DNA of 64,000 nt from a virus, in IMG/VR virus record IMGVR_UViG_3300005471_000012, positions 27,149 to 91,148 of that record; one strand, 5' to 3'. The notes below the pieces were generated by a model. That model did not search any database. It had not been told where the DNA came from and worked only from the letters and a program-made list of their open reading frames with translations. The stretch's first letter is position 1, and every line of letters starts with the position of its first letter. Positions 254-63,068 of this stretch are shown here, one piece after another. A program made the position numbers and the translations under genes.

Positions 254-787
254 ATGCCGCGCAGCCGCACCGTCGCCGATCGTGAACGCGATGCCAAAGC
301 CCTGTCCCTGCGCGCCCGCGGGTACACGCACCGGCAGATTTCCGCGCAGCTCGGCTGGAAATCACCCGCGTCCGCCGTCGGCGCCTGCACCCGCGCCATG
401 CAGGACATGTACCGGGAGGATATAGACAAATGGCGCCAGATTGAGCTGGACAAGCTCGATGACCTGACCCGCGAGGCCTGGGACGCGATGCAGGAAGCCC
501 ACTACCTCGTCTCCCAGGGCAAGGTGGTCAAGGACGACGACGGCACGATGCTCGTCAACGCCGTCGACAAAGTCAGCCAGCTCGGCACGCTTCTGCTGAA
601 GATCAGCGAGTCCCGCCGAAAGCTGCTCGGCATCGACGCCCCGCCGCAGAAGGCGCCGACGCCCGATAATCTTGATGCCGAGATCGAGACGCTGGTCAAG
701 CAGCTTTCGGGTCTGGGCGACGTGCCGAAGCAGGTGGCGGACGGCACGGTGGCCGCTATCGAGAGCGCGGCCCCGCCGGGGGCCTGA
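254..787 (+). CDS. Terminase small subunit (putative)
   Basis: 177 residues, ATG preceded by AGGAGG. The N-terminal 10-45 region reads as a helix-turn-helix (RARGYTHRQISAQLGW), expected for the DNA-recognition domain of a terminase small subunit; the rest is helical with a charged C-terminus. Position directly upstream of the large subunit is the main support. The family itself is too divergent to recognise by eye, so a different DNA-binding protein cannot be excluded. Confidence 0.7.
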   Translation: MPRSRTVADRERDAKALSLRARGYTHRQISAQLGWKSPASAVGACTRAMQDMYREDIDKWRQIELDKLDDLTREAWDAMQEAHYLVSQGKVVKDDDGTMLVNAVDKVSQLGTLLLKISESRRKLLGIDAPPQKAPTPDNLDAEIETLVKQLSGLGDVPKQVADGTVAAIESAAPPGA

Positions 788-794
788 GGCCGCA

Positions 795-3302
795 GTGCCG
801 CAGCCATCGTGGGATCAGCTTCCGCCTCATGCGAAGCAGCAGCTCCGCGACCGGCTCGCGGCTGAGCTGGCGGTGCGGCGCAGTACCACCCCCCGGCCGT
901 GGCGGAAGCTGGCGCGGCCGAAGCAGCTGCCGCCGGACGACCCGCGGCACTGCCTGCCGGATGCGAACGGCTACAAATGCGGGTGCGACAAGCCCGATAT
1001 GACCTTCAATGTCTGGCTCGTGATGGCCGGGCGCGGGCTGGGCAAAACGTGGCAAGGCGCCCAGTGGCTAACGGAACAGGCAATTCGGTATCCAGGGACA
1101 GAGTGGGCCGTGGTGGCCCCAACCTTCAGGGACGTGCGCAAAACGGCTATAGAGGGCACAACGGGCATTCTGGCAGCACTCCAGCCGGGCGAGCTGGCCA
1201 GCTATCACCGCAACGAGCTGATGATCACCCTCGCGGGAGGGTCCCACCTGTTCGGCTACTCGGCCGATAATCCGGAGCGCCTGCGGGGCGCCAACCTGTC
1301 CGGTGCATGGTGCGTCGCCCGGGGGGAACCCGTACTCACATCTCGCGGGCCCGTGCCGATTGAGGACGTGCGACCCGGCATGAGGGTGTGGACGCGGCAG
1401 GGATGGCGCCGGGTGCTCGCGCAGCGGCTGATGGCCCGCGCCGCGCCCGTTGTGCGCGTCGTTACAGACGGAGGGGCGAGCGTCCGGGTCACGGCAGGCC
1501 ACCGGATTTGGACGCAACACGCCGGGTGGATGGAAGCACGAACGCTGGCCCCTGGCGATATTCTTAATGTATGGAATTCGCCTACGGGCCACCGGCCTGG
1601 ATCGAATGGGAGGGCGTCCGCTTCTATCGCCGCAGCAAGAGCGGCCATTACGCGGATCGCACCGGCTGCCTGCTTCACGTCGCCGTCTGGGAGCGCGCCC
1701 ATAAGCGACGGATACCTGACGGCCACGCTGTGCATCACAAGGACGAAGATAAGGTCAACAACGGCGCCGGCAACCTCGAACTGCTCACCAAGGCCGAGCA
1801 CACCAGGCACCATAACCTCACCGAGCCCCGCGGCATTGCCGTCCTCGCCACAGCCGAGCGGTCCGGCATATCGCGCAACTCATGGGCCAACCGGCCGGAG
1901 CGCGATTTCGCCTGTAACGTCTGCGGCACCTCGTTCAAATCCAAGGGCCAGCGGGCCATGTACTGCTCGCCCAACTGCCGCGCCGCCGCCTTCCGCGCTG
2001 ATCACCGCAAACGCGGACAGGACGCGCTGGCCGACCGGCAATGCGAATGGTGCGGCGACAGCTTCACCCCGCCAGACCGGCGCACCGTCTATTGCGGCCC
2101 CGCCTGCCGCCAGAGGGCAGGAGACGGCGCGAAGCGCGCCCGCAACCGCGCACGGCTGGGAATTCCGGCCTGCGCAGCCTGCGGCAACCTGTTCACCCCC
2201 AAGGACGGTCGCCAGCGATTCTGCTCCGGTCTCTGCCGTCAGCGGCATGCGCGTCGCGAGGCTCGAGCCCGCTGGGCGGGCTGACGTATACGACCTCCAG
2301 GTCGAGGGCGTTCACGAGTTCGTCGTCGGCCGCATCCTGGTCCATAACTGCGATGAGCTAGGTTCGTGGCGGTACCCGCAGACCTGGTACGAGGGCCTCA
2401 TGCCCGCCTTGCGGGTAGGCGAGTTCCCCCGGGTGGTCGTCACGACGACCCCCCGACTCGTCCCGCTGATCAGGGACCTGGTCGGCCGCGATGACGGCTC
2501 TGTGCACATTACCCGCGGGTCGACGTGGGAGAACGCCGACAACCTGTCTGCGGCGGCGCTCGCGGAACTCCGGCACCGCTACGGCGGCACGAGGCTGGGC
2601 CGGCAAGAGCTCGAAGGCGAGCTCCTCGAGGACGTTGATGGCGCACTGTGGGCCCGCGATGACATTGACGCGGCCCGCGTGAAGCTCGGCGAGGTGCCGC
2701 AGCTGCACCGCGTCGTCGTCGCGATCGACCCGGCCACCACGTCGGGCGAGGATTCCGACCAGACGGGCATCGTGGTCGTCGGGGAGGGCCCGGGCGGGCA
2801 CGGCTACGTGCTGGCCGACCTGACGTTCCGGGGCACCCCGGATGCGACGATGCGCAAGGCGGTCGGCGCCTACCATCAGTACCAGGCCGACTCGGTCGTG
2901 GCAGAGGTCAACAACGGCGGGGATTACATCCGGTCCCTGCTGCGGACCGTTGACCCGCAGATCCCGTACCGGTCGGTGCGGGCGACCCGCGGCAAGCGGA
3001 CCCGGGCCGAGCCGGTGTCTGCGCTGTACGAACAGCGCAGAATGCACCATGTCGGGGTGTTCCCGGAGCTAGAGGACGAGATGTGCTCGTGGACTCCGGA
3101 TAGCCTCCTGGGCAGCCCGGACCGCATGGACGCACTTGTCTGGGGGTGTACCGAGCTGCGCGGCCTGTCGGTCGGCTCGTGGCGTGAAGCATACGGCGTG
3201 ATCATTTGCGCTACCTGCCAGGAGCCATACATGCCGGAAGGCAAGACGGCCTGCCCGTGGTGCGGCGCCGACGTTCCGGGTGAGGCCGAGGTGCCAGCGT
3301 GA
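795..3302 (+). CDS. terL: Terminase large subunit precursor, interrupted by an intein
   Basis: ATP-driven DNA packaging motor and headful nuclease. The GTG at 795 follows the small-subunit stop by 7 bases and fits the family start better than upstream codons. Precursor 835 residues. Walker A GRGLGKT lies near residues 79-85. The Walker B acids DE follow directly on the intein junction (GAW / CDELGSW). The RNase-H-like nuclease shows VVAIDPATTSGED and later SPDRMDALVW. Residues 173-518 are an intein; removing it gives a 489-residue protein, normal for TerL. The C-terminus carries a CxxC...CxxC zinc ribbon (CATCQEPY...CPWCGADVP), unusual for the family. The stop overlaps the next start (GTGA). 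Confidence 0.93.
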   Translation: MPQPSWDQLPPHAKQQLRDRLAAELAVRRSTTPRPWRKLARPKQLPPDDPRHCLPDANGYKCGCDKPDMTFNVWLVMAGRGLGKTWQGAQWLTEQAIRYPGTEWAVVAPTFRDVRKTAIEGTTGILAALQPGELASYHRNELMITLAGGSHLFGYSADNPERLRGANLSGAWCVARGEPVLTSRGPVPIEDVRPGMRVWTRQGWRRVLAQRLMARAAPVVRVVTDGGASVRVTAGHRIWTQHAGWMEARTLAPGDILNVWNSPTGHRPGSNGRASASIAAARAAITRIAPAACFTSPSGSAPISDGYLTATLCITRTKIRSTTAPATSNCSPRPSTPGTITSPSPAALPSSPQPSGPAYRATHGPTGRSAISPVTSAAPRSNPRASGPCTARPTAAPPPSALITANADRTRWPTGNANGAATASPRQTGAPSIAAPPAARGQETARSAPATAHGWEFRPAQPAATCSPPRTVASDSAPVSAVSGMRVARLEPAGRADVYDLQVEGVHEFVVGRILVHNCDELGSWRYPQTWYEGLMPALRVGEFPRVVVTTTPRLVPLIRDLVGRDDGSVHITRGSTWENADNLSAAALAELRHRYGGTRLGRQELEGELLEDVDGALWARDDIDAARVKLGEVPQLHRVVVAIDPATTSGEDSDQTGIVVVGEGPGGHGYVLADLTFRGTPDATMRKAVGAYHQYQADSVVAEVNNGGDYIRSLLRTVDPQIPYRSVRATRGKRTRAEPVSALYEQRRMHHVGVFPELEDEMCSWTPDSLLGSPDRMDALVWGCTELRGLSVGSWREAYGVIICATCQEPYMPEGKTACPWCGADVPGEAEVPA
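1311..2348 (+). mobile_element. Intein in TerL, inserted at the Walker B motif
   Basis: Block A is CVARGEPVLTSRGPV at the N-terminus. Block B is VRVTAGHRIWT, with the Thr and His of the TxxH motif. Block F is VYDLQVEGVHEFVVGR, and the end is ILVHN followed by Cys+1 of the C-extein. Cys1, penultimate His, terminal Asn and Cys+1 are all present, so splicing competence is expected. The insertion point next to the catalytic Asp-Glu is a typical conserved-site choice for inteins. The 346-residue intein has splicing halves of about 86 and 35-40 residues; the roughly 220 residues between them are Ala/Pro/Ser/Thr-rich, without a recognisable domain. The same DNA encodes an HNH protein in another frame (1571-2284). 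Confidence 0.9.
1571..2284 (+). CDS. HNH homing endonuclease nested in the intein in another frame
   Basis: 237 residues starting ATG at 1571; a TAA at 1565-1567 closes the frame immediately upstream, so it has its own start. Residues about 55-80 contain the HNH core (HAVHHKDEDKVNNGAGNLEL). Three treble-clef-like zinc fingers follow, each CxxC plus YCSxxCR-type (CNVCGTSF...YCSPNCR, CEWCGDSF...YCGPACR, CAACGNLF...FCSGLCR), fitting a DNA-recognition arm. No good ribosome binding site is visible. Its stop lies inside the coding sequence of the C-terminal splicing block. Likely role: cleaving intein-free terL alleles for homing. Confidence 0.88.
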   Translation: MEFAYGPPAWIEWEGVRFYRRSKSGHYADRTGCLLHVAVWERAHKRRIPDGHAVHHKDEDKVNNGAGNLELLTKAEHTRHHNLTEPRGIAVLATAERSGISRNSWANRPERDFACNVCGTSFKSKGQRAMYCSPNCRAAAFRADHRKRGQDALADRQCEWCGDSFTPPDRRTVYCGPACRQRAGDGAKRARNRARLGIPACAACGNLFTPKDGRQRFCSGLCRQRHARREARARWAG

Positions 3303-10860: not shown

Positions 10861-11083
10861 CGTCTTGCGCTCCCTTCGTGTCGTCTTCGCGGGCCAGGGC
10901 TAGCGCGGGCCCCGGGGTTGCCGCCGCCCGCTTTCGCTTCAGCACGTACCGCTTCCTGTGCCCCATCTTCTTCGTCAGCCGCTTCCGCTGCGGACCCGTC
11001 AGCCCGCCTTCCGAGCCGAGGGAATGGGTACGCACGCCGCCGGGCTGCGACAGGTAGTTGCGCCTGCGCTCGGCGTGGTTCAA
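10844..11083 (-). CDS. Small basic protein
   Basis: 79 residues from TTG 11083, chosen because GGAAGG lies ten bases upstream and the product then begins MNHAERRRNYLSQPGG, a typical short phage start. Very basic middle (PQRKRLTKKMGHRKRYVLKR) suggests nucleic-acid binding. Confidence 0.65.
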   Translation of the reverse strand: MNHAERRRNYLSQPGGVRTHSLGSEGGLTGPQRKRLTKKMGHRKRYVLKRKRAAATPGPALALAREDDTKGAQDDGHRV

Positions 11084-11271
11084 TCTGTTGCCGCCTTCCG
11101 CGCGCTGCTCGATGCGGATTCGCTGGCCAGCAGGGCTAGCGCTTTCCGCTCCCACTCGCCGCATGCGGCCGTGCCAGGCCTGAGCGACCGGGCGTAACGC
11201 GCCACCCCGGCCGCGGCCTCCTGGCGGCTAACCTCTATGACTTCGCCGCTGTCGGCGTCGTAGACCAGCAT
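11080..11271 (-). CDS. Small hypothetical protein
   Basis: 63 residues, ATG 11271 after GGAGGAG. Begins with strand MLVYDADSGEVIEVSRQEA and continues as a helix (ERKALALLASESASSSARKA). Overlaps both neighbours by a few bases. Confidence 0.72.
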   Translation of the reverse strand: MLVYDADSGEVIEVSRQEAAAGVARYARSLRPGTAACGEWERKALALLASESASSSARKAATD

Positions 11272-11417
11272 CACAGGACGTCTCCTCCGGCCCCGGGCAT
11301 GTGCTTGACGCACGCGATCACCCGGGCCCAGCTCAGGACGTTCGCCGTCCACATGCCGTACTGACTCACGCACCCGCACCGGAGGCGGCGCGTGGTGCCG
11401 ATCAGCAGGCGGGCCAT
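11271..11417 (-). CDS. 48-residue hypothetical protein
   Basis: ATG 11417 overlaps the previous stop, and its own stop overlaps the next start (TGATG). Begins MARLLIGTTRRLRCGCVSQYG; CGC...C..H could chelate a metal. Support is mainly the tight coupling on both sides. Confidence 0.65.
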   Translation of the reverse strand: MARLLIGTTRRLRCGCVSQYGMWTANVLSWARVIACVKHMPGAGGDVL

Positions 11418-11983
11418 CACGCGCCGTCCTTGCTCTGCCCGGACGTCAGGCCGCACGGGCAGTGCGGCTCTACGTGCTGCCAGGGCTTGTCGCTCCGGGT
11501 CCGCTTCACCTTGCCGTTGTCCCAGAGGATGTCTTCGTCGCTGATCCCGGCACGCCAGGCGGCAAAGGACTCATCGTCGTGCACGTGGTGCTGCCCGGTC
11601 ATCCCGGCCAGGATGTTGGTGACGTGGATCAGCCCGTCGCCGTTGCGGGTACAGCAGAACGTCATCCGCGGGGCGAACGGGTCGTAGCGCGGCGTGATGT
11701 CTTTCGCCTGCCATGACTGCATGACCTGCCGTGAGGCTTCCCAGCGCGGATCGAGTTGCAGCCGCCCCGGGTTGCCGTGCTCGTCACCGCGGCCATACGG
11801 CCGGGTGAAGTCGCATCCGGTGGCCAGGAGCTCGGCGCGGAACTGCCGCGCTTCCTTCTGGTATTTCAGCGTCACCCCGGCGCTCAGGCCGGAGCCGTCG
11901 TGCACGACGCGCCACCCGGGCGCGGTACCGGGCGAGCGCCGGACGCTCAGCCCCCGGTCGGTGTCCTCTGGCATTCTGCTCAT
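11417..11983 (-). CDS. Hypothetical protein, 188 residues
   Basis: ATG 11983 with GGAAGG upstream, the first gene after promoter 12013-12041. Contains WRVVHDGSGLSAGVTLKYQ, a central TFCCTRNGDGLIHVTN segment and a C-terminal HCPCGLTSG. Mixed alpha/beta composition; no family recognised. Confidence 0.82.
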   Translation of the reverse strand: MSRMPEDTDRGLSVRRSPGTAPGWRVVHDGSGLSAGVTLKYQKEARQFRAELLATGCDFTRPYGRGDEHGNPGRLQLDPRWEASRQVMQSWQAKDITPRYDPFAPRMTFCCTRNGDGLIHVTNILAGMTGQHHVHDDESFAAWRAGISDEDILWDNGKVKRTRSDKPWQHVEPHCPCGLTSGQSKDGA

Positions 11984-12012
11984 CTGCCTTCCGTGGTCCA
12001 GGTCGCATCTTG

Positions 12013-12041
12013 ACGATACGCCATCATGCGAATTGTGTCTA
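12013..12041 (-). promoter_or_regulatory. Repeated sigma70-like promoter, copy 3
   Basis: Minus strand TAGACA, spacer CAATTCGCATGATGGCG (17), TATCGT. Lies between the ATPase gene ending at 12080 and the gene starting at 11983. The best match to the family consensus. Confidence 0.85.
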
Positions 12042-12079
12042 CTGCGATCCGCGTTCCGTGTAGGTCGTGCAGGTTGTGT

Positions 12080-13324
12080 TTACGCAGGTAGCGCGAGCGG
12101 GCCGCGCGGCGAGGTTGTGTAGCTTGTGCGGGCCGGGATCTCCTCGACCTCGTCCGGGTCGGACATGTCCACGTCTGCGAGATCGGTGACAGTCCCCGCG
12201 GGGGCGCGGCGTTCCCATTCGGCCCGCAGCAGGGCGACGACGTATCCGCGTCCGCGTCGCTGGCCGACGATCCCGGTCCGCTGGCCGTGCTCCGGGGCGA
12301 CCTCGGCCATCATCATGGACAGGGCCCGGTCGGGCAGTGCTTCATACATCGGCTCGCCGAACCGGCGCATTTCGTCACGCAAGTCGGCGCCGAGCGCGAA
12401 CCCGTCGCTGACCAGCCCGGCCGGGATCATGATGTCGCTCGCCCGGCACATGTCCCTGAGAACGGTCTGCCGCGGGGTGAGCACAGGCTCGCTCGCCGCG
12501 TCCAGGGCGAGGTCCAGGAACGCGGCGAGGATGCGCCTCGGCCACATGCCGCCGGCGGCGCCGGCGATCGCGAACAGCGGCTCCCAGATTTCCCGCTTGC
12601 GGCCTTTCAGCTTCGGGTGCAGTCCGCGAGCGCGGAACGCCCGGATCAGCCCGGCGTTCTCTTTTGCCCATTGCCCGAGTGACGCCCGGTACTTGAGTGC
12701 CTGCGGGTCGTGCTCGCGGACAAGGTAATCCTCGGCCGGCTCGCCGGGGGCCATGGTGATCACGACACTCCGGGACCGGACGTCGTTGGGCACCGCGGCG
12801 CCGCGGCCGGCCATCGCCGCGGCGGCGAACACGTTGACGTCCTCCGCGACCAGGCTGGACGCGAAACTATCGGTCGCGCCGTACTTGTAGCCTTCGCGCA
12901 GCAGCGTGCCGAGCGGGTGAGTGGTGCCGGATCTGCCGGACCGGCCGAACACGTCGGACACCTCGTCCACGATGAACGTGGGGCGCTCGGGCTCGTCCAG
13001 TTTCGCGCGGACCGCATACCGGGTGCCCTTCCCGCCGGCCCAGGAGTTGCGTGACAGGTCACGCACCCTGGCCAGGGTCTCGGACTTGCCGGCTTCGGGG
13101 TCCTGGGACGTGATCAGCAGCCGCGGCGTCACCACGAAGCACGCCTCTAGCACGTGCGTGTGAGCGCACCATGCGGCGATCGCGTCGAGCTGCGCGGGAC
13201 TGGCGTCGATGAACCTGGCCAGGAATTCGCGGGTGTCGTCCAGGACTGAGGGGCCCGGCGCTACCGGGCCGGGCATGCTGGCGGGCGGGGCTGCCGCCGG
13301 CTCCCATGCGTGCCGTGTGTCCAC
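12080..13324 (-). CDS. DUF3631-like ATPase, probable replication helicase
   Basis: 414 residues, GTG 13324 with GGGAGG upstream. Walker A is SQDPEAGKSETL (residues about 72-83) and Walker B is PTFIVDEVSD (about 113-122); further conserved features are GTHPLGTLLREGYK and NVFAAAAMAGRG with a following arginine-rich segment. This is the layout of the DUF3631 group, often fused to or placed beside primase domains in actinobacteria and their phages. It is the only clear replication-type enzyme in the window. Last gene of the unit beginning at 16824-16852. A 114-base gap with a GGCCGC/GCGGCC hairpin precedes it. Confidence 0.85.
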   Translation of the reverse strand: MDTRHAWEPAAAPPASMPGPVAPGPSVLDDTREFLARFIDASPAQLDAIAAWCAHTHVLEACFVVTPRLLITSQDPEAGKSETLARVRDLSRNSWAGGKGTRYAVRAKLDEPERPTFIVDEVSDVFGRSGRSGTTHPLGTLLREGYKYGATDSFASSLVAEDVNVFAAAAMAGRGAAVPNDVRSRSVVITMAPGEPAEDYLVREHDPQALKYRASLGQWAKENAGLIRAFRARGLHPKLKGRKREIWEPLFAIAGAAGGMWPRRILAAFLDLALDAASEPVLTPRQTVLRDMCRASDIMIPAGLVSDGFALGADLRDEMRRFGEPMYEALPDRALSMMMAEVAPEHGQRTGIVGQRRGRGYVVALLRAEWERRAPAGTVTDLADVDMSDPDEVEEIPARTSYTTSPRGPLALPA

Positions 13325-26718: not shown

Positions 26719-27504
26719 GTGTGCCTGAACTGCGGCTGCCTCATGCCCAATGCGGACCACGGTCATCCCGGCAATTTCCTGCTGGCCGAACTGGAGAAGG
26801 CCGCCGCGGCAGGCGGCACCAGCGCCGCTGAGGCAGCCTGGAACATTCCCCGCACCCTCACGGTGGCCACGTCGCCCGCGTGGCCACCTGAGCCGTATCA
26901 CGCGGCCTCGCGGCCCACCCTGGCATGGGACGTGGACGGCATCCTCGCGTTCACCGCCGAAGCGATCGTCGCCGCGCTGAACGCCCGGTTCGACACCGGC
27001 TACGACGCCATGTCGCAAGGATTCTTCCCCGGCACGTTCGTCTCCTCGGCGCTCCCGGCCGAGGAGGCCGCCTGGCTCGGCCAGCAACTCAGCTCAGGCG
27101 AGTTCGGCATCTACGGGGCGTGCGCACCAGACTGGCACGCGATCGACACGATGCTTGACGCGTCTGCGGCGGGCTACCCGACGGTGATCATCACAGAACG
27201 GCCCGCCGTGGTGGCCGACCAGACACGTTCGTGGCTGCGGTCGTGGACCGGGCAGCAACCGCCGCAAGTCGTAGCCGTCGGCCGCGGCAACAAGCCCGCC
27301 TACATGGGAGCCCGGTTCGGGCCCGGCAACCCCGCCATCCTGGTCGACGACAACCCGGCCGTCAGGATGACCATCGCCCGTGAGGGCATCGAGGTGTGGA
27401 CCCCGCAGCGGCCGTACACGCCGGCGCCCGGCCGGCCGCATGCGCGGACATTCGGCAACTGGCCGGCAGCACGGTACTGGCTCGGGATCAGCCCCGCCAG
27501 CTAA
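26719..27504 (+). CDS. HAD-superfamily phosphatase
   Basis: 261 residues from GTG. A short Cys-containing N-terminal piece (CLNCGCLMPNADHG) precedes the HAD core: motif I TLAWDVDGILA (nucleophile Asp in DxD), motif II VIITERP, motif III/IV around NKPAYM and ILVDDNPAV. Hydrolysis of a phosphorylated small molecule or nucleotide is expected. In phages such enzymes sometimes trim nucleotides; substrate unknown. A second, unrelated-length HAD protein occurs at 53295. Confidence 0.82.
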   Translation: MCLNCGCLMPNADHGHPGNFLLAELEKAAAAGGTSAAEAAWNIPRTLTVATSPAWPPEPYHAASRPTLAWDVDGILAFTAEAIVAALNARFDTGYDAMSQGFFPGTFVSSALPAEEAAWLGQQLSSGEFGIYGACAPDWHAIDTMLDASAAGYPTVIITERPAVVADQTRSWLRSWTGQQPPQVVAVGRGNKPAYMGARFGPGNPAILVDDNPAVRMTIAREGIEVWTPQRPYTPAPGRPHARTFGNWPAARYWLGISPAS

Positions 27505-27921: not shown

Positions 27922-30900
27922 GTGGCGACAGCCATTGATGAGCTGACCTACGTCAGTTTCCCCATCGTCAAGTTCGAGAAGACGGACGACGGCGACCTGA
28001 TCGTGGTCGGCAAGGCCACCGATGGCTCCGTCGACTCAGATGAGCAGATCGTAGACCCGACCTGGTCGGCGAAAGCGCTGGGCGACTGGCTGGACACGGG
28101 CGGCAACGTCCGGGTGCAGCACCAGGCGATGCGCGACCCGGCCGGCAAGGGCCTCCAGGTCGAGATCGACAAGGACGGCGACGGGGGGCACTGGGTCCGT
28201 TCGCTCGTCGTCGAGCCCGTCGCCAAGCGGCTCGTGGAAAAGGGCGTCCTCACCGCCTACAGCGTGGGGATCGCACGGCCCGTGATCACCCGTGACCCGA
28301 CCGGGAAGGCACGCGGCGGGATCGTCACCGGCGGCCACCTGGCGGAACTCTCCCTCGTCGACCGGCCGGCGAACAAGAACTGCGGCCTGATGATCGCCAA
28401 GGCCGAGAACGGCGCGAAGGGCGGCATGGAACTGGTGGGCGAAGTGTTCGGCGACCCCGAGTTCCTGGCCAAGGCCGCCGAGGATGACCTGCTGGCCAAG
28501 GCCGACAGCAACGACGACACCGTGTCCGGCAACGACGGTGACGCAGACGATGTCCCGGAAAGCGAGGAGCAGGCTGGCGGCGACGACGTCAACCCGACCG
28601 GCACCGACGAGAAGGCGGAGAAGGCCAGCGAGACGATCGCCCAGTCGGTGGACGCCGAAACCGCGGCACTGTACAAGTCGCAGCGCGCCATGTGGCTGGC
28701 CGCAGAGCCGTCGGTGAAGGGCATCGCCGGAGGCACTGAGTACCTGGCCAGGCGCGCCGACTGGATGCGGTGGCATTCCGAGGGCGAAGCCGCGGGCCTC
28801 GACGGTACCAAGGACGGCGCCGAGCGGTGGCTGGCCAAGCGTGACTTCAGCGCCTCCGAGCGCCGGTCTGCGGCCAGCAGCGGCGCGGCTATGTCCGACG
28901 GGTCTTTCCCGATCAAGAACGGATCGGACCTGGCCAACGCGATCCACCTGGCGGGCCACGCCAAGGACCCGGCGAAGGCACGCGCGCACATCAAGCGCCG
29001 CGCCGCCGCGCTCGGCCTGTCCGACAAGATTCCCGACAGCTGGAAGGCGGTCAGTACCGAAGAACTGGCCAAGATGATCGCTGACGGCGTGATGGCGGTC
29101 CAGGCCGCACAGGCCATGCTCGGCCCGGCCTGGCCTGGCCTGGACCTGGCCAAGGCCGGCTCCGACGGCGACGGCGGTAAGGACTGCCCGACGTGCAAGG
29201 GCACCGGGAAGATCAAGGGCGGCAACGTTAAGTGCCCGGCGTGCGGCGGCAGCGGCAAAATGTCGTCCAAGGCCGATAGCGACGGGGACGGCGACAGCGC
29301 GGCGGTGGAAGACGCCGACGTTGAGAAGACGGCTGCCCGGACCTGCGGCGGCTGCGGCAAGGGCTTCGGCGAGGAGTCGCTGGCCAAGTTCTGCGACGGC
29401 TGCGGAACCAAACTGGCCTCGGCGGACGATACGGCAAGGAAAGCCGCCGCCGAGGCCGTGGCCCTGCTCGCCGAGACGGTCAGCAAGTCCGTCGGCGCCG
29501 GCCTGATCTCCCAGGAGGCAGCCGACGCGATCATCGCGCGGGCCGCGCTCGCTGCGGCCAAGGCCAACGACCCGCCGCCCCCGGACACTAAGCCAGTTGG
29601 CGCGCACCGGGAACCAGACGGCAGCTTCGTTGAGGCATTCGAGCAGGACGCCGGGCTGCCCTCCGACGGTGACGGGACCTCGGACAAGATCCCCGAATCC
29701 ACGGTGGTCAGCGACATGGGCGGCAAGACGGGCAAGCCGGGCAAGACGGGCAAGCCGACGCCGTACGCGGTCGGCCGGCTGCACGACGTCACTTGCGCCG
29801 CATACGACCCCGCCGCCGCCCTGGCCCTGTACCCGACGCTGAAGTCGGCGGCCGACGCCGTGGACGAGGACTGGTTCGCTGCCCGCGCCGCCAAGGCGGT
29901 CGCCGCCGGGAAAACCAAGAAGGCCGCCAGGCTGACCAGGCTGGTCGAAGCCGCGCAGGCGGTCAAGGCAGCCGACCCGGCCGCCGTCGCCGACGGCCAG
30001 GCGCAACTGCGCAAGGCCTTCACCGACCTGTACCCCAACTTGCGCATCTCCCCGTCGGACCCGCCGAAGCCAGGCAGCTACCAGCGGCCGTACCTGACCG
30101 CCGGCCACGCCGCCGAGAACGCCTCAGTGAACGGCGGATCCAACATCCCGCGGTCCAGCCACACCCCAGACGCGGAAGATTTCCGCCGGCCGCTGATCAC
30201 CGCCGGGCACCAGTCCGACTCCCCGGCCAACAAGAACGACATCCGCGGCGGCGCGCCAACCGCAACCGGCGCGGCCCGCACCTACTACAGCAACGCGCAG
30301 CGTGAAGCGGCCAGGGTCGCGCTCGCCTCAATGCACGACCACATCGCGGCCGTCTACCCGCACCTGTGCCCGATGGCCGCCTCGAAGTCAGTGCTGCCAC
30401 CCGACATGGGCACCACGAATGTCCCTGCCGCCGTGCGGCCAGCGGACACCGGCGGCGTCCCCGGCGTTGGCAAGACCACCGTGGCCCCCGCGGTCACCGG
30501 CGGCCAGGACCTGCAGGCCCTCATCGCCGGCGCGGTGGAGCGGTACACCGCCCGCAGCGCCCCGCAGATGACCGCCGAGCAGCTGCAGAAGGCCGCCGCA
30601 GGGCTCGGACTGGCGGTCACGCCGGCGCCCGTCCCGCAGCCAGCCCAGATCGGGCTGTCCCCGGCCGAGATGAAGGCCCTGCTCGCCGAGCAGATCACCC
30701 CGCTCGCAGAGCGGTACGAAACCCAGTTCACAGACCTGCGTAAGCAGATTGACGACATCGGCTCACAGCCCGACCCTGCGATGGCCCCCGTCCGGGGCGC
30801 GCTGGCCCGGGCACCGCTGACAGACACCGTTCCCGTGGAACGCCGGTCACTGGTCGATGAGGCAGCTGAGAACGCACGCAAGATGGCCGCAGACGACGAC

Positions 30901-31011
30901 ACCCGCTACCGCGAGTACGTCCAGCTGCTGGCCAAGTCCCCGGACCCAGGCGTACGCGAGTCCGCCATGGCCGTCCTCGACAAGATGGCCGCGCCCGCGG
31001 CCGCCAGCTGA
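27922..31011 (+). CDS. Very long prohead protease/scaffold protein
   Basis: 1029 residues, GTG behind GGAGGCAT. Residues 1-165 are a HK97-type prohead serine protease (VDSDEQIVDPTWSAKALGDW, VRVQHQAMRDPAG, LTAYSVGIARPV, LAELSLVDRPANKN): catalytic His in VQHQ and Ser in AYSVG are plausible. Residues about 330-375 (FPIKNGSDLANAIHLAGHAK...IKRRAAALG) are a module known from capsid maturation proteins. Two zinc ribbons lie at about 421-446 (CPTCKGTGKIKGG...CPACGGSGK) and 474-494. The C-terminal part is helical and scaffold-like. Typical proteases are 200-600 residues, so this is an expanded multi-domain version. Confidence 0.88.
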   Translation: MATAIDELTYVSFPIVKFEKTDDGDLIVVGKATDGSVDSDEQIVDPTWSAKALGDWLDTGGNVRVQHQAMRDPAGKGLQVEIDKDGDGGHWVRSLVVEPVAKRLVEKGVLTAYSVGIARPVITRDPTGKARGGIVTGGHLAELSLVDRPANKNCGLMIAKAENGAKGGMELVGEVFGDPEFLAKAAEDDLLAKADSNDDTVSGNDGDADDVPESEEQAGGDDVNPTGTDEKAEKASETIAQSVDAETAALYKSQRAMWLAAEPSVKGIAGGTEYLARRADWMRWHSEGEAAGLDGTKDGAERWLAKRDFSASERRSAASSGAAMSDGSFPIKNGSDLANAIHLAGHAKDPAKARAHIKRRAAALGLSDKIPDSWKAVSTEELAKMIADGVMAVQAAQAMLGPAWPGLDLAKAGSDGDGGKDCPTCKGTGKIKGGNVKCPACGGSGKMSSKADSDGDGDSAAVEDADVEKTAARTCGGCGKGFGEESLAKFCDGCGTKLASADDTARKAAAEAVALLAETVSKSVGAGLISQEAADAIIARAALAAAKANDPPPPDTKPVGAHREPDGSFVEAFEQDAGLPSDGDGTSDKIPESTVVSDMGGKTGKPGKTGKPTPYAVGRLHDVTCAAYDPAAALALYPTLKSAADAVDEDWFAARAAKAVAAGKTKKAARLTRLVEAAQAVKAADPAAVADGQAQLRKAFTDLYPNLRISPSDPPKPGSYQRPYLTAGHAAENASVNGGSNIPRSSHTPDAEDFRRPLITAGHQSDSPANKNDIRGGAPTATGAARTYYSNAQREAARVALASMHDHIAAVYPHLCPMAASKSVLPPDMGTTNVPAAVRPADTGGVPGVGKTTVAPAVTGGQDLQALIAGAVERYTARSAPQMTAEQLQKAAAGLGLAVTPAPVPQPAQIGLSPAEMKALLAEQITPLAERYETQFTDLRKQIDDIGSQPDPAMAPVRGALARAPLTDTVPVERRSLVDEAAENARKMAADDDTRYREYVQLLAKSPDPGVRESAMAVLDKMAAPAAAS

Positions 31012-31051: not shown

Positions 31052-32917
31052 GTGACAGGCACTGAAGTCCTGCCTTTCGGCACTGCCGCAAGGCCAGCGC
31101 TCGAGCGCGCGGACGCGAACCCGTCGTGGTACGCCGACGCTGACGCAGGCGCATACCGGGCACCCGACGCGATGCTGTCGGACAAAATGCCCACCCTGGT
31201 CAAAGGCGCCGGCTACTGCCGGCCGGGAGGCAACCGCCCCCTGGACGACGACGACCAGGTTTTCCGCCGCTCGATGAAAGCCGAAGTGGCTTTCCGGTCG
31301 GCGATCAAGCAGGGCATCGAGAACCCCGGCCAGGTCCTCAAGGGCATGTCCCCGGAGTTCGCCGGCCAGTTCGGCGCCTTCATGGCCGCCGCCCCGGCCA
31401 ACCAGGCGATGAACCAGCTGGTCACCCAGCTCAACTCGCAGCTGTCCGACCAGCTCGGCAAGTCGATCACCCTGACATCGCCGCTCTCGACGGGCTTCGT
31501 GCCTTTCGACCTCGTGGCGCCGAGTTCGCTTATCTACCCGGTCTATTCCCCGATCCGCAACAAGCTCCCTCGTAGCCCCGGTCAGGGCACCAGCCGGATC
31601 CGCAAGGTGATCACTGGCGTTTCCGGTTCGCAGACCGGCCCGTCGGGCGGCAAGTTCGTCCGGCTCGCCATCCCTGAACTGGTGCAGTCCGGCGGCGCCA
31701 TTTCCGGTGCAAGCACGGCGGTTAACTGGCCGCTGAACTTGCCAGGAACCGGCACGCAGGACGCCGTCGACCTGACCATCCCTTACCGTTTCTGGGGACT
31801 GTCCGAGAACCTGTCGTGGCTTGCCCAGTTCTCCGGGCAGGGATTCGAGGACATTTCTGCGCTCGCGAATCTCCTGCTGCTCCAGGAGTTCATGCTGAAT
31901 GAAGAGGCAGCCCATCTGGGTGCCACTTCCACGGCACTTACCGCGCCTGCCGCGCCGACGCTTACGGCGCGTGCGGCGAATAGCGGCGAGTCTCCGCTGA
32001 CCGGTATTACCACGAACGTGTTCGTAAAGGTCAGCGCGAATACGTTCTTCGGGGAAACGGCAGTCGTCGCCTCGGGCGCGTCCGTGGCCTGGTCGACCGG
32101 CCAGGTCGTCGACGTGCAGATCGCCCCGGTCGCCGGGGCCCAGTGGTACACGATCTACGCCACTACAGGGTCTTCTGCGGGTACGTATCACCTGTTCGCG
32201 GCCAATGTCGGCGGGCAGATGTACACCCTGCAGGGCGCGCTGCCGACCACGTCGGCGCAGCCGCAGGCCTCGGACAGCGGTACGTCGTCCGCCAACGACC
32301 AGGAGGGCCTGACCTCGGTCCTGTCCGGCCACTCGGCGGGCGGCATCTACCCTTCGAACTGGCAGGCCGGGTACTTCTCCCAGACAACAGGTGACACGCT
32401 TAAGACAAGCGTTCTCAACAACGCATTCCAGCAGCTCTGGGATGGCACCGGGAACGTTTACGGAGCATTCAGGGCGGACCCGGCCGAGATCATCGCCGAG
32501 GGCGGCGACGTCATGCGCCTGTCGAACGACATCGTTCAGCAGGGCGCCGCCACGAACTACCGCCTGTTCGTCGAGCAGTCGGAAGTGCCCGGCGTCCGCG
32601 TCGGCGCGGCCGTGTCCGAGTTCCAGAACCCGATCACACGGTCCGTGGTGCGCATTGTCGTGCACCCCTGGACCCCCCAGGGCTCGGCTTACCTCATGTC
32701 CTACACCATGCCATTCGCATGGTCGAACGTGAGCAACGTTGTCGAATTCGTGGCCGTGCAAGATTACCTCAGCATTAGCTGGCCGGTAATTGACGCGAGC
32801 TTCCGCTACAGCATGTTCCTGTTCGGCAGCCTAGTAGTCAATGCGCCTTTTTATTGCGGGTTGATCCAAGGTATCCAGAAGTCCGACCGCTCCGGGTCTA
32901 TCGGGACCTGGTCGTAA
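31052..32917 (+). CDS. Major capsid protein
   Basis: 621 residues from GTG 31052 (GGAGGC leader). Position after protease/scaffold, size and composition identify the shell protein. N-arm contains RRSMKAEVAFRSAIKQGIEN; the core shows LTSPLSTGFVPFDLVAPSSL, WGLSENLSWLAQFSGQGFED, and near the end FRADPAEIIAEGGDVMRLSN and ITRSVVRIVVHPWTPQG. Residues about 299-400 (APAAPTLTARAANSGESPLT, WYTIYATTGSSAGTYHLF) look like an inserted fibronectin-III/Ig-like domain, not part of the HK97 core. The fold itself is inferred. Confidence 0.87.
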   Translation: MTGTEVLPFGTAARPALERADANPSWYADADAGAYRAPDAMLSDKMPTLVKGAGYCRPGGNRPLDDDDQVFRRSMKAEVAFRSAIKQGIENPGQVLKGMSPEFAGQFGAFMAAAPANQAMNQLVTQLNSQLSDQLGKSITLTSPLSTGFVPFDLVAPSSLIYPVYSPIRNKLPRSPGQGTSRIRKVITGVSGSQTGPSGGKFVRLAIPELVQSGGAISGASTAVNWPLNLPGTGTQDAVDLTIPYRFWGLSENLSWLAQFSGQGFEDISALANLLLLQEFMLNEEAAHLGATSTALTAPAAPTLTARAANSGESPLTGITTNVFVKVSANTFFGETAVVASGASVAWSTGQVVDVQIAPVAGAQWYTIYATTGSSAGTYHLFAANVGGQMYTLQGALPTTSAQPQASDSGTSSANDQEGLTSVLSGHSAGGIYPSNWQAGYFSQTTGDTLKTSVLNNAFQQLWDGTGNVYGAFRADPAEIIAEGGDVMRLSNDIVQQGAATNYRLFVEQSEVPGVRVGAAVSEFQNPITRSVVRIVVHPWTPQGSAYLMSYTMPFAWSNVSNVVEFVAVQDYLSISWPVIDASFRYSMFLFGSLVVNAPFYCGLIQGIQKSDRSGSIGTWS

Positions 32918-43346: not shown

Positions 43347-43428
43347 GGTGATAACTCCTTCTGGACGTCACTCGCTTCCGGGCTGTACCGTGACGGTGCT
43401 GTCCTTGTAAGCACGCTGGTCACGGTCG

Positions 43429-43500
43429 CGCCCTCGGCGGGGATCGGACCCGCGACGCGCCGGTTAACAGCCGGCTGCTCTGCCGTTGGGCTACGAGGGC
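43429..43500 (-). tRNA. tRNA-Asn (anticodon GTT)
   Basis: 72 nt without encoded CCA. Acceptor GCCCTCG/CGAGGGC, anticodon stem GCCGG/CCGGC with loop CTGTTAA (GTT), variable GCGTC, T stem GCGGG/CCCGC with loop TCCGATC. The D stem GCCC/GAGC has one C-A mismatch. 82 bases upstream of the ClpP-like start and on the same strand. Confidence 0.88.
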
Positions 43501-59574: not shown

Positions 59575-59808
59575 TTACTTCTCCTCCTGGTGCGGGGGGT
59601 GGCTTCCGGGGACCGTTTCCCCGGTCTGCCAGTCGAAAAATTGACGTACCTCGGATTCCTTGTACCGCCGGTGCCCGCCAGGCGTGCGGATCGACGACAG
59701 CTTTCCCGCCTTCGCCCACCGGGTCACCGTTTTCGGGTCGACGCGAAGCATCGCGGCAACCTCAGACGGCGTAAGGAGCGCTTCTTCGATGTGCGGGCGT
59801 GTCGCCAT
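59575..59808 (-). CDS. BldC-like MerR-type regulator
   Basis: 77 residues from ATG 59808. LLTPSEVAAMLRVDPKTVTR, WAKAGKLSSIRTPGGHRRYK, ESEVRQFFDW matches the BldC/excisionase-like winged-helix HTH almost throughout (Streptomyces BldC has LLTPAEVATMFRVDPKTVTR). A small DNA-binding protein that in Streptomyces controls development by binding direct repeats cooperatively. Could alter host development or act as a phage excisionase/regulator. Confidence 0.9.
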   Translation of the reverse strand: MATRPHIEEALLTPSEVAAMLRVDPKTVTRWAKAGKLSSIRTPGGHRRYKESEVRQFFDWQTGETVPGSHPPHQEEK

Positions 59809-60563: not shown

Positions 60564-60860
60564 ATGAACGCCTGCAACGGCGGGCGGGCAGGCACGCGCT
60601 GGACTACCAGGAACCGCATTGAAGCCTGTGGCAACTTTGCGCTCTACGACGTGCACGCCGGCCGCGAGCACGAGCACGTCGAAACGTGCCATCTGTGCGC
60701 CGGGTGCATGGACAAGGCGCTAGCCACCCTCGCCGTCGGCTTCCTGCGGTGTAGCTGGTGTGATCACTTCTGCCGGCTGCTCGTCCGGCACCAGCCCATC
60801 GAGGAACGCGGCAACGGCGGCGGCCTGGACTTCCCACAGTTTCACCGTTCCGGGCAGTAG
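60564..60860 (+). CDS. Cys-rich hypothetical protein
   Basis: 98 residues from ATG 60564. CGNFALYDVHAGREHEHVET then CHLCAGCMDKALATLAVGFL and RCSWCDHFCRLL, a double zinc ribbon. The last 141 bases overlap the converging gene ending at 60720. Likely real up to the second ribbon. Confidence 0.62.
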   Translation: MNACNGGRAGTRWTTRNRIEACGNFALYDVHAGREHEHVETCHLCAGCMDKALATLAVGFLRCSWCDHFCRLLVRHQPIEERGNGGGLDFPQFHRSGQ

Positions 60861-61457
60861 CCGCAGCCCGGCGCCGAGCCGGTCCATGGCCGCCCGGACG
60901 TCCTGGTGTGCCCGGTAACCAGACCCCGCGGTGGCGTGGCCGTCGCCGCGATGCGCCCGCCGCCACGCCATGCCGAGCCCGGCAGCCCGTCCCGGCGCGG
61001 CCGGGACCGTGGCCAGTGCCGCGCTAACGTAATGGCCGACGGCCAGGCCCTTGCCGCCTGGCCGCTGCCGGTCGGCGGCCCACCTGGCTTTCAGTGCCAT
61101 GGCCAGCGCGGCGGGCAGCCGGACCCCCAGTTGCCCCCACTCTTCCGGTGAGTCCTGGGCCGAGTTCCGGGCAGCCATGACCTGCTCCCATGCGTCCCCG
61201 GCAGGCGCAACGTCAGCGGATGTTACGCGGCGGCTTTTACGGGCCGGCGCCTTGCGCGCGATGGCCCGGTCGTCGGCACGGTCGCCGCGGGCTTCGTCGG
61301 CGGCCCGCCGGTTCTGCCGGAATTTGTCAGCGACGCGGGCAGCGGCCGCGGCTGGAGTCGCTTCGGGAACGGCGGTCAGCAGCGCCGGGCTGTCGGCGGC
61401 GTCTTCTGGCTTGGCGGCGGCGACGTAGGCCTCCAGCCCGCGCCGGGCCGGGCTCAT
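60720..61457 (-). CDS. ParA partner protein (putative ParB/RHH-type)
   Basis: 245 residues; ATG overlaps the ParA stop (ATGA). Ala-rich and basic at the start (RKAPARKSRRVTSADVAPAG); the second half, QLGVRLPAALAMALKARWAA...VGHYVSAALATVP, has a ribbon-helix-helix look. Adjacent to ParA, it probably is the centromere-binding partner. Family uncertain. Confidence 0.68.
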   Translation of the reverse strand: MSPARRGLEAYVAAAKPEDAADSPALLTAVPEATPAAAAARVADKFRQNRRAADEARGDRADDRAIARKAPARKSRRVTSADVAPAGDAWEQVMAARNSAQDSPEEWGQLGVRLPAALAMALKARWAADRQRPGGKGLAVGHYVSAALATVPAAPGRAAGLGMAWRRAHRGDGHATAGSGYRAHQDVRAAMDRLGAGLRLLPGTVKLWEVQAAAVAAFLDGLVPDEQPAEVITPATPQEADGEGG

Positions 61458-62206
61458 CCTGCCGCCATCGGCGTCGCGAGGGCACCCGTTTCGGCGTCTC
61501 CGAACAGGCCGGGCCGCAGCTGCCCGATTTCCGTCAGGACTGCGCGGAGTTCCTGGCGTGCTAGGTCCGCGACATCGCCCGGGTACTCGGAGATGGGGAT
61601 GCCGTCACGGATGGCGTGCTGGTGCACCGCCCGGCGGGTAATCATCGGCTCGAAGACCTGGATTGCCTTTCGGGCCAGGAACAGCCGCGCTTCCAGTTCC
61701 ACCCGGGACGCCCCGGCCGGGAGCCCGTTCAGCAACACTCGCGGACGGCAGCCATGCCCGGTGACGTAGTCGACGGTCTCCACGGTTTCCGTTGCCGACA
61801 GCACCGTCATGTCGGATGGGATCACTGCCATGTCGGAGTATTCCAGCACCTTGGCAAGAACCTCGTTGGTTGTGATGTTACCGGGAGTGTCCACGATGAT
61901 GAGCCCGAACCCTTCAACGTCGCCGATCCGGGCGAGTACGCCCGGGTCAAGTTCGGCGACGAACTCGTAGCCGGGGTTCCGCAGCGCGGTGCTGGCCTTG
62001 ACGGCGCTTGATTGCGGGTCGGTGTCTACGACCAGGGTCCGGATGCCGTGCTTGCCGGCCGTGGCGGCGAGCCCGAGTACGTCTGTCGTCTTGCCTACGC
62101 CGCCCTTCCCGTTGCCGACTGCCACAATGAGCGGGCGAGGCGGCCAGTCGGGGTCTGTCAGCGGGTCCCCTCGCCTGCCTGGCCGCCTGTGCATGTCGGT
62201 TGTCAT
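61454..62206 (-). CDS. parA: ParA-type partition ATPase
   Basis: 250 residues from ATG 62206, chosen because it keeps a short N-terminal extension; no strong site marks the start. Deviant Walker A NGKGGVGKTTDVLGLAA, A' TLVVDTDPQSSAVKA, Walker B GLIIVDTPG, then AVIPSDMTVLSATETVETVD. Typical of plasmid and phage-plasmid ParA proteins, which position DNA copies by ATP-dependent nucleoid binding. The iterons at 62431-62470 lie upstream. Confidence 0.9.
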   Translation of the reverse strand: MTTDMHRRPGRRGDPLTDPDWPPRPLIVAVGNGKGGVGKTTDVLGLAATAGKHGIRTLVVDTDPQSSAVKASTALRNPGYEFVAELDPGVLARIGDVEGFGLIIVDTPGNITTNEVLAKVLEYSDMAVIPSDMTVLSATETVETVDYVTGHGCRPRVLLNGLPAGASRVELEARLFLARKAIQVFEPMITRRAVHQHAIRDGIPISEYPGDVADLARQELRAVLTEIGQLRPGLFGDAETGALATPMAAG

Positions 62207-62430
62207 GGCGCCGGATGCTATACCAGGCAGTCTGCCGGGCGGAAGCCCTCCCGGTGCTATGGGCGTGTCACTTTCCGTTCTGCTCGTCTGCCTGCCGCGC
62301 GGGCGCACGAGCGCTTCCGCCGTTTGCCTGCTACCTGCCTTGCCCTGCTGTCGGCCGACTCGGCGGACCATCGTACGGCCCGTCCGGGGCCGGTGCGGGC
62401 ACATGCTCGCAGGGCTGCGCGCGTGTACAG

Positions 62431-62470
62431 CTGTTCGACTGTTCGACTGGCTGTTCGACTGTTCGAGCGG
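62431..62470. promoter_or_regulatory. Iterons upstream of parA (operator or centromere)
   Basis: Two 20-bp units, CTGTTCGACTGTTCGACTGG and CTGTTCGACTGTTCGAGCGG, i.e. four copies of CTGTTCGA at 62431, 62439, 62451 and 62459. Location 225 bases upstream of parA and 23 bases from the neighbouring gene end suits a parS/operator. Confidence 0.75.
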
Positions 62471-62492: not shown

Positions 62493-62990
62493 TCAGTCCC
62501 ACAAGTGCCCGAACCATGCGGCCATCAGCCGCAGCGCGTCCCGCTGGGCAGCATACTCGGCTTCCACCCGCACCTTGTACTCTTCGCGTGTTTCTCCGTC
62601 AATGTCCCGGTCCAGATCCACGGCCAGCGGCCCGGCGATGTCGGTCAGGATGGCATGCCATGCCTCGACGGTCAGTTCGCCACCGGGCCAGGTGTGCCCG
62701 TGGTCACGCAAGTGGATGGCCATGCCCGCGATGAGCGGCGCCAGGTAGCCGTGCATGTTCCACACGTCCCGCTCAGACCAGCCCCGCCGGGAGCGCTGCC
62801 ATCGCCACCGCAGCCGCGCCCACGGCGGCACGGAACGCAGGTCCCGCAAGGTACGCCGCAGCTGCCACCAGCCGTCTATCCCGCGACGCAGCGGCCAGGG
62901 CCGCGCGGCGTGCCGCCGCGCCCGCTCGGCGATGCGTTCCTCGACTTCTTCCAGCGTCGCGAAACCGGCGGCACGTGATCTTCTGCTCAC
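62493..62990 (-). CDS. Hypothetical protein upstream of parA
   Basis: 165 residues from GTG 62990 (GGAGGGGAA upstream). Very Arg/Trp-rich N-half (WWQLRRTLRDLRSVPPWARL), then WNMHGYLAPLIAGMAIHLRD and a helical acidic tail. Seen as an uncharacterised protein in actinophages. May belong to the partition or replication group. Confidence 0.75.
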   Translation of the reverse strand: MSRRSRAAGFATLEEVEERIAERARRHAARPWPLRRGIDGWWQLRRTLRDLRSVPPWARLRWRWQRSRRGWSERDVWNMHGYLAPLIAGMAIHLRDHGHTWPGGELTVEAWHAILTDIAGPLAVDLDRDIDGETREEYKVRVEAEYAAQRDALRLMAAWFGHLWD

Positions 62991-63068
62991 TTCCCCTCCC
63001 AAGTTACTACCTGTGACCGGCCGGGTGCGCTACGGTATCCGCATTCACCGGGGGAGCGGAAGGAAACC

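Follow-up and report, generated by a model that had tools for sequence, protein, structure and literature searches.

A large tailed actinophage (about 155–160 kb) probably carries a type Ib or type Ib-like parA–parB–parS partition locus, making it a putative phage-plasmid that most likely keeps its prophage as a low-copy plasmid. The locus lies in a stretch of 64,000 nucleotides (the window), positions 27149–91148 of a 91,148-base IMG/VR virus record (G000), and comprises a gene for a deviant Walker ATPase, a gene for a putative DNA-binding partner and an array of four octamers (Table 1). The initial annotation had proposed a partition system in a phage-plasmid, a proposal now well supported by plasmid homologues of the gene pair, by conserved octamer arrays and by an analogous locus in phage RedRock. 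Extrachromosomal lysogeny itself is likely but unproven.

Table 1. Features of the window that bear on the partition locus and on the identity of the phage.
Feature	Position in window	Strand	Remarks
Terminase large subunit, C-terminal part after intein end	2247..3302	+	Phage marker
Small serine recombinase, invertase/resolvase type, 194 aa	17000..17584	-	Resolvase E 9e-38; phrog_125 DNA invertase
Probable major capsid protein	31052..32917	+	phrog_13692; weak SU10_MCP; phage marker, query for relatives
phrog_5931 protein, DGQHR motif	55981 to about 57078	-	Collinear in G022; family without assigned function
BldC-family HTH protein	59575..59808	-	NF033787 99.5 bits, cut-off 77
Partition partner, putative centromere-binding protein, 245 aa	60720..61457	-	Family in G005, G022 and actinobacterial plasmids
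parA, ParF/ParA-type deviant Walker ATPase	61454..62206	-	AAA_31, CbiA and phrog_164 matches
Putative parS/operator, four octamers CTGTTCGA	62431..62466	-	About 225-260 bp upstream of parA
Upstream gene without assigned family	62493..63002	-	Ends just upstream of repeats

A group of large metagenomic actinophages

G000 carries phage virion and packaging genes, namely a terminase large subunit, a capsid candidate and large tail-region genes. The contig is linear and incomplete and has no direct terminal repeat, and a comparison of 24.9 kb of it with 50,697 phage records found no near-DNA relative. Relatives were sought with the capsid protein as query, which retrieved 23 IMG/VR records of up to 154 and 160 kb, all with metagenome-style identifiers; no lysogen, plasmid or isolate carrying this capsid was found. 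The 160-kb relative (G022) has a gene that continues in frame across the joined contig ends (772 aa joined, compared with 783 aa for the G000 homologue), indicating that this record is most likely complete as a circle; the molecule itself may be circular, or the virion DNA circularly permuted. Because the left and right ends of G000 map to about 7 kb and about 73 kb of G022, about 66 kb is missing from G000. The corresponding stretch of G022 encodes a DnaB helicase, an SSB-like protein, a sliding clamp, 37 predicted tRNA genes (one unclear) and a tyrosine recombinase. A WhiB-like reading frame at the start of the record, a BldC homologue, the GC content and the plasmid matches described below point to an actinobacterial host, perhaps one of the Streptosporangiales.

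Several further features of these genomes were recorded. The terminase large subunit gene is apparently split by an intein (window about 787–3302), its C-terminal gene opening with the splicing end VHNC. G022 and the 154-kb relative G019 each have about 37 predicted tRNA genes, which together serve most amino acids (L137, L138, L047, L036); a lone tRNA-Asn gene in the window (43428–43500, minus strand) lies amid rightward tail-region genes, and the large tRNA cluster of the relatives sits elsewhere. The 783-aa protein, encoded at the left end of the record (L001:6317-8668, G000:C1), has N-terminal membrane segments, a Walker A motif (GMPGRGKT) and the sequence FDEWAKL, and its gene is conserved in G022 together with the preceding membrane-protein genes. 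It is possibly a DNA translocase; it has no Pfam, PHROG or NCBIfam match, and an assignment as FtsK was dropped when Pfam gave no confirmation.

An operon of probable type Ib architecture

The ATPase was correctly recognized as ParA by the initial annotation: it contains the deviant Walker A motif GKGGVGKTT, matches AAA_31 (E = 1.3e-11), CbiA (5.4e-11) and the ParA family phrog_164 (3.2e-21), and finds ParF (4dzz, E = 7e-11) in the PDB. Its start codon is ambiguous (ATG at 62206 or GTG at about 62125). The adjacent alanine-rich partner is likewise present as annotated, with a 4-bp overlap between its start and the parA stop. A deviant Walker A motif of the KGGxGKT form, no detected N-terminal HTH and short direct repeats upstream of parA fit type Ib. 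Such systems, exemplified by TP228 parFGH and pSM19035 delta–omega, combine a ParF-like ATPase without an HTH, a small downstream DNA-binding partner and an operator or centromere of short direct repeats upstream. The phage locus has the ATPase type, the downstream partner and the upstream direct repeats in common with both, but its partner is larger, with a predicted tandem ribbon–helix–helix (RHH), and its repeats are octamers rather than tetramer boxes or heptads.

Type I partition is also used by the Streptomyces linear plasmid SCP1, in which the ParBs of dual ParABS systems are HTH-CTPases acting on inverted-repeat parS sites of 13 and 19 bp (PMC13245405), whereas G000 has a direct-repeat array and no ParB_N domain (PF02195, no match in G000 at E ≤ 1), and thus no sign of an HTH-ParB (CTPase) system. 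The ParB-like protein listed by the initial annotation was thus not confirmed; the protein meant there was probably that of phrog_5931. A gene for a small resolvase, also listed there, does exist in the form of a serine recombinase, but 43 kb from the par locus; it was found in none of the 23 related records and could encode a multimer resolvase or an invertase.

G000 and G022 are collinear over endolysin, phrog_5931, BldC, partner and parA, in that order, which argues that the par locus is not a chimera. A homologue of BldC, a developmental regulator of Streptomyces, adjoins the par genes in G005 (98 kb) as well as in G022. Neither parA nor the partner gene has a match in the collection of 50,697 phage records, and single-sequence scans of IMG/VR with ParA or the partner returned zero relatives.

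Octamer arrays upstream of parA

The four repeats reported in the initial annotation are exact copies of CTGTTCGA starting at 62431, 62439, 62451 and 62459, forming two tandem pairs separated by 4 bp; read on the parA strand, the octamer is TCGAACAG. An unbiased scan of all 8-mers in the 91-kb record identified this as the sole cluster of four copies inside 60 bp; in 60 simulated records (third-order Markov), such a cluster was never seen. Autocorrelation upstream of G000 parA (17 of 24 matches) reached the 95% level of the simulations; because this is only moderately significant on its own, we place weight on the exact copies and their conservation.

Elsewhere, octamers occur with the same 8-bp phase and orientation upstream of parA in G005, G022 and a linear Nonomuraea plasmid, the core on the parA strand being TCGAA in G000 and TCGCA in G005 and G022. 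From the upstream regions of these three phage records, with the Nonomuraea plasmid left out, we derived the phased pair TCGMA-N3-TCGMA and counted it over whole records. All four occurrences in G022 lie upstream of parA, as do two of three in G000 and two of five in G005, where the other three form a second intergenic array. On the Nonomuraea plasmid (198,862 bp), 5/5 occurrences are upstream of parA and in the parA direction. The pair is absent upstream of the parA of G019, which has no partner gene, and the reversed pattern, used as a control, matched three times across four records (548 kb). The second TCGCA array of G005 (L151:1583-1611; G005:C1:35083-35111) occupies an intergenic gap 55 kb from parA and directly precedes a gene homologous to window 27922–31011; by analogy with RedRock, it is possibly a second parS. 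A 9-bp lag maximum upstream of G005 parA came from a distinct repeat, CGCAGCGCC, and was set aside.

A close precedent comes from the extrachromosomal cluster A mycobacteriophages. The parS of RedRock, experimentally proven, consists of eight 8-bp direct repeats (PMC7157519), which the scan used here recovers at lag 8 (20 and 19 of 24) as a positive control; its units, such as TAGTCGAG (AGTCGAG-type), lie upstream of parA in the same orientation. RedRock, Alma and Miko (PMC7157519) have a small deviant-Walker ParA with 27–32% identity to ours (E about 1e-12 to 1e-14), and the cluster A parABS loci share with the present one an adjacent overlapping DNA-binding partner and a parS of 8-bp direct repeats that contain a TCG core, lie upstream of parA and point the same way; at times there is a second array. 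The two systems differ in the core (TCGAG in RedRock, TCG(A/C)A in G000 and relatives) and in the partner, the 245-aa protein being a predicted tandem RHH and the 89-aa RedRock ParB a single one. The phage type of G000 is also about three times larger than cluster A phages, and its relatives add a tyrosine recombinase. At the DNA level, no relatedness to cluster A was seen in the phage collection, and no cluster A capsid matched.

These observations bear on two other meanings of the octamers. Short tandem direct repeats in an intergenic region, as found here, are what iteron origins look like, and the initial annotation had called the repeats iterons. We consider it very improbable that they are replication iterons of a plasmid origin. 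No Rep-like gene adjoins the repeats among the neighbours scanned, no initiator gene was recognized beside the arrays of G000, G005 or G022, and the array tracks the partner gene and the orientation of parA, disappearing in G019 together with the partner; RedRock, moreover, provides a proven parS made of 8-bp direct repeats (PMC7157519). No plasmid replication initiator was recognized among the proteins scanned, in a G000 that is without most of the replication region. Since the repeats behave like a parS or operator and have no rep gene beside them, the term 'iterons' probably does not apply, and the octamers are probably better read as a parS centromere/operator. An extremely improbable alternative is that they are sites for the nearby BldC-family regulator, whose gene lies about 2.6 kb from the array: BldC does bind direct repeats head-to-tail, but these are 9-bp AATTNNNN(C) repeats with an AT-rich core, and binding is lost on changing AATT to GGCC (PMC5859096). 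The octamers are phased by 8 bp and have no AT-rich core, and on the Nonomuraea plasmid the annotated neighbours of the array include no BldC gene. We rejected a BldC site on the basis of that 9-bp, AT-rich-core consensus.

A partner with a predicted tandem RHH fold

The partner comprises an alanine-rich N-terminal part followed by a C-terminal part with a predicted tandem RHH. AlphaFold gave no confident fold for the G000 protein itself (pLDDT 39), but modelled its shorter G005 homologue (138 aa) from a three-sequence alignment with a pLDDT of 76.7 and a pTM of 0.75. In this model, a strand–helix–helix occurs twice (two beta-alpha-alpha units), and a Foldseek search with it returned as top match chains E–G of the F-plasmid relaxosome (E = 8.6e-3, probability 1.00). 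Judging by chain size and entry titles, we take these chains to be TraY, which is a tandem RHH protein. Viral matches of the model also include RHH proteins.

Sequence comparison did not recover this relationship. Pfam RHH_1 (PF01402) did not match the partner, a PDB sequence search with partner profiles gave nothing useful and no detectable relation to RHH proteins there, and HHalign did not recognize the two RHH halves as an internal repeat in sequence, so that one model and its fold match are the basis of the tandem fold. We therefore predict a tandem RHH with medium confidence, and for the relative only. RedRock ParB, which has a weak RHH_1 match, shows no full-length homology to the partner; over the predicted RHH strand, 14 residues align at 50% identity, with a non-significant E of 0.57. 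A short literature search, of partial coverage, found no description of this type of partner.

The gene pair on actinobacterial plasmids

Seven actinobacterial plasmids or megaplasmids carry a member of the partner family after ParA. In plasmids of Nocardiopsis exhalans (circular, 91 kb), Nonomuraea sp. NBC_00507 (linear, 199 kb), two Streptomyces (linear) and Amycolatopsis, this member immediately follows an annotated ParA. The parA–partner order also appears, in gene calls made here, on two giant linear replicons, those of Embleya sp. NBC_00888 and Streptantibioticus (S. cattleyicolor pSCATT). The par operon of the phage is thus homologous to plasmid operons, giving it the plasmid maintenance module of a phage-plasmid. 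The Nonomuraea locus combines an 8-bp phased GTCGCA array with a homologous partner downstream of ParA; the Nocardiopsis plasmid has TCGCA repeats at about 12-bp spacing, and five more distant plasmid loci have no TCGMA array. The Nonomuraea partner homologue had no match in the 50,697 phage records.

These replicons differ from the phage in being annotated plasmids, and the phage capsid has no match on actinobacterial plasmids. In a ParA tree with weak support and long branches, uninformative on origin, the phage ParAs did not group with the ParAs of the partner-sharing plasmids, which fall on a different branch.

Recombinases and the mode of lysogeny

ParA was found in three of the 23 relatives (G005, G019 and G022), and exactly these three have a tyrosine recombinase. 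The ParA–partner pair of G000 is shared by G005 and G022, whose tyrosine recombinases are orthologous (45% identity) and begin 4.8 and 14.4 kb beyond parA, respectively. The initial annotation had argued for extrachromosomal lysogeny from the lack of an integrase. A PF00589 integrase is indeed found neither in the window nor in the 91,148-base record, but the argument fails: G000 is a fragment whose contig ends 1.8 kb beyond parA, before the recombinase position of G005 and G022, and the absence is uninformative.

We thus considered a temperate phage that integrates by means of a tyrosine recombinase encoded in the missing part, with par as an accessory stabilizer (for example, of circular or excised stages) or as a leftover of plasmid recombination. 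The orthologous enzymes accompanying the same par pair in G005 and G022 would fit this arrangement and may integrate; PHROGs lists the recombinase as an integrase, and a phage with ParA, ParB and an integrase together has been reported (PMC4490671). Other properties of the enzyme make such a phage rather unlikely. The recombinase is Xer-like, matching XerC/XerD models below their cut-offs, and is matched far better on plasmids than on phages: 2,767 plasmid records match, and in 1,929 the match covers 80% or more of the enzyme, compared with 53 phage records, none over 80%. The best plasmid matches (43–45%) are from Nonomuraea and Thermobispora. The G005 and G022 enzymes have no detectable arm-binding N-terminal domain, no attP-like T-arm motif was seen near the gene, and a dyad/attP search gave no conserved site. 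It is plausible that this recombinase resolves multimers. An integrase with an attP elsewhere in the same genome had been named in advance as evidence against the plasmid state; the record has no PF00589 match, and the tyrosine recombinase that does occur in G005 and G022 does not refute a plasmid lifestyle, being an Xer-like enzyme whose matches come mainly from plasmids.

G019 differs from the other two. Its ParA gene (L036:7389-8051) has neither partner nor upstream TCGMA array and lies 7 kb from a different tyrosine recombinase, an independent arrangement inside the same phage group. G019 also has a gene for an FtsK in which alpha, beta and gamma domains are present (FtsK_SpoIIIE E 6e-66), next to one for a DUF2637 membrane protein (G019:C1, L139:13660-15681 and 11031-12230); this module resembles actinobacterial plasmid transfer genes and is comparable to the membrane-gene module of the G000 783-aa gene. 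FtsK gamma domains activate Xer recombination.

The replication genes and tRNA genes of G022 count against a phage-plasmid, as a phage's own replication proteins and many tRNA genes are content often seen in virulent phages. It is nonetheless improbable that the phage is virulent and uses ParA and its partner otherwise, for example to position phage genomes or regulate transcription during infection. That no repressor was positively identified agrees with virulence, but the operon and octamer arrays resemble plasmid partition loci and the parS of the RedRock prophage, and a recombinase and a BldC homologue are present too.

Discussion

Taken together, the gene pair, the conserved repeats and their occurrence on plasmids favour partition of a low-copy prophage plasmid, from which we infer the following mechanism. 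The partner, as a predicted RHH DNA binder, would coat the octamer array upstream of parA, where it would both repress its own operon and assemble a partition complex. Nucleoid-bound ParA-ATP would then pull or tether these complexes so that each daughter cell receives a copy, and multimers would be resolved by a recombinase, of the serine type in G000 and of the Xer-like tyrosine type in the relatives.

Actinophages with partition-based lysogeny were already known (PMC7157519). What appears new here is the phage group, the partner family common to actinobacterial plasmids and the tandem-RHH fold predicted for it. More tentatively, we suggest that the partner may represent a new class of single-chain, tandem-RHH (TraY-like fold) centromere-binding proteins that read GTCG-core octamer arrays, are common to large soil actinophages and to linear and circular actinobacterial plasmids, and work with interchangeable ParAs; in the phages, they would form a complete plasmid-stability kit with an Xer-like recombinase.

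The phage locus is now linked to linear and circular plasmids of actinobacteria, on which the partner gene is still annotated as a 'hypothetical protein'. A partition-based, potentially extrachromosomal phage life is thereby extended from mycobacteriophages of ~50 kb to tRNA-rich actinophages of ~160 kb that are represented only in metagenomes. The octamer array is a candidate centromere, and as such predicts incompatibility between phage and plasmid.
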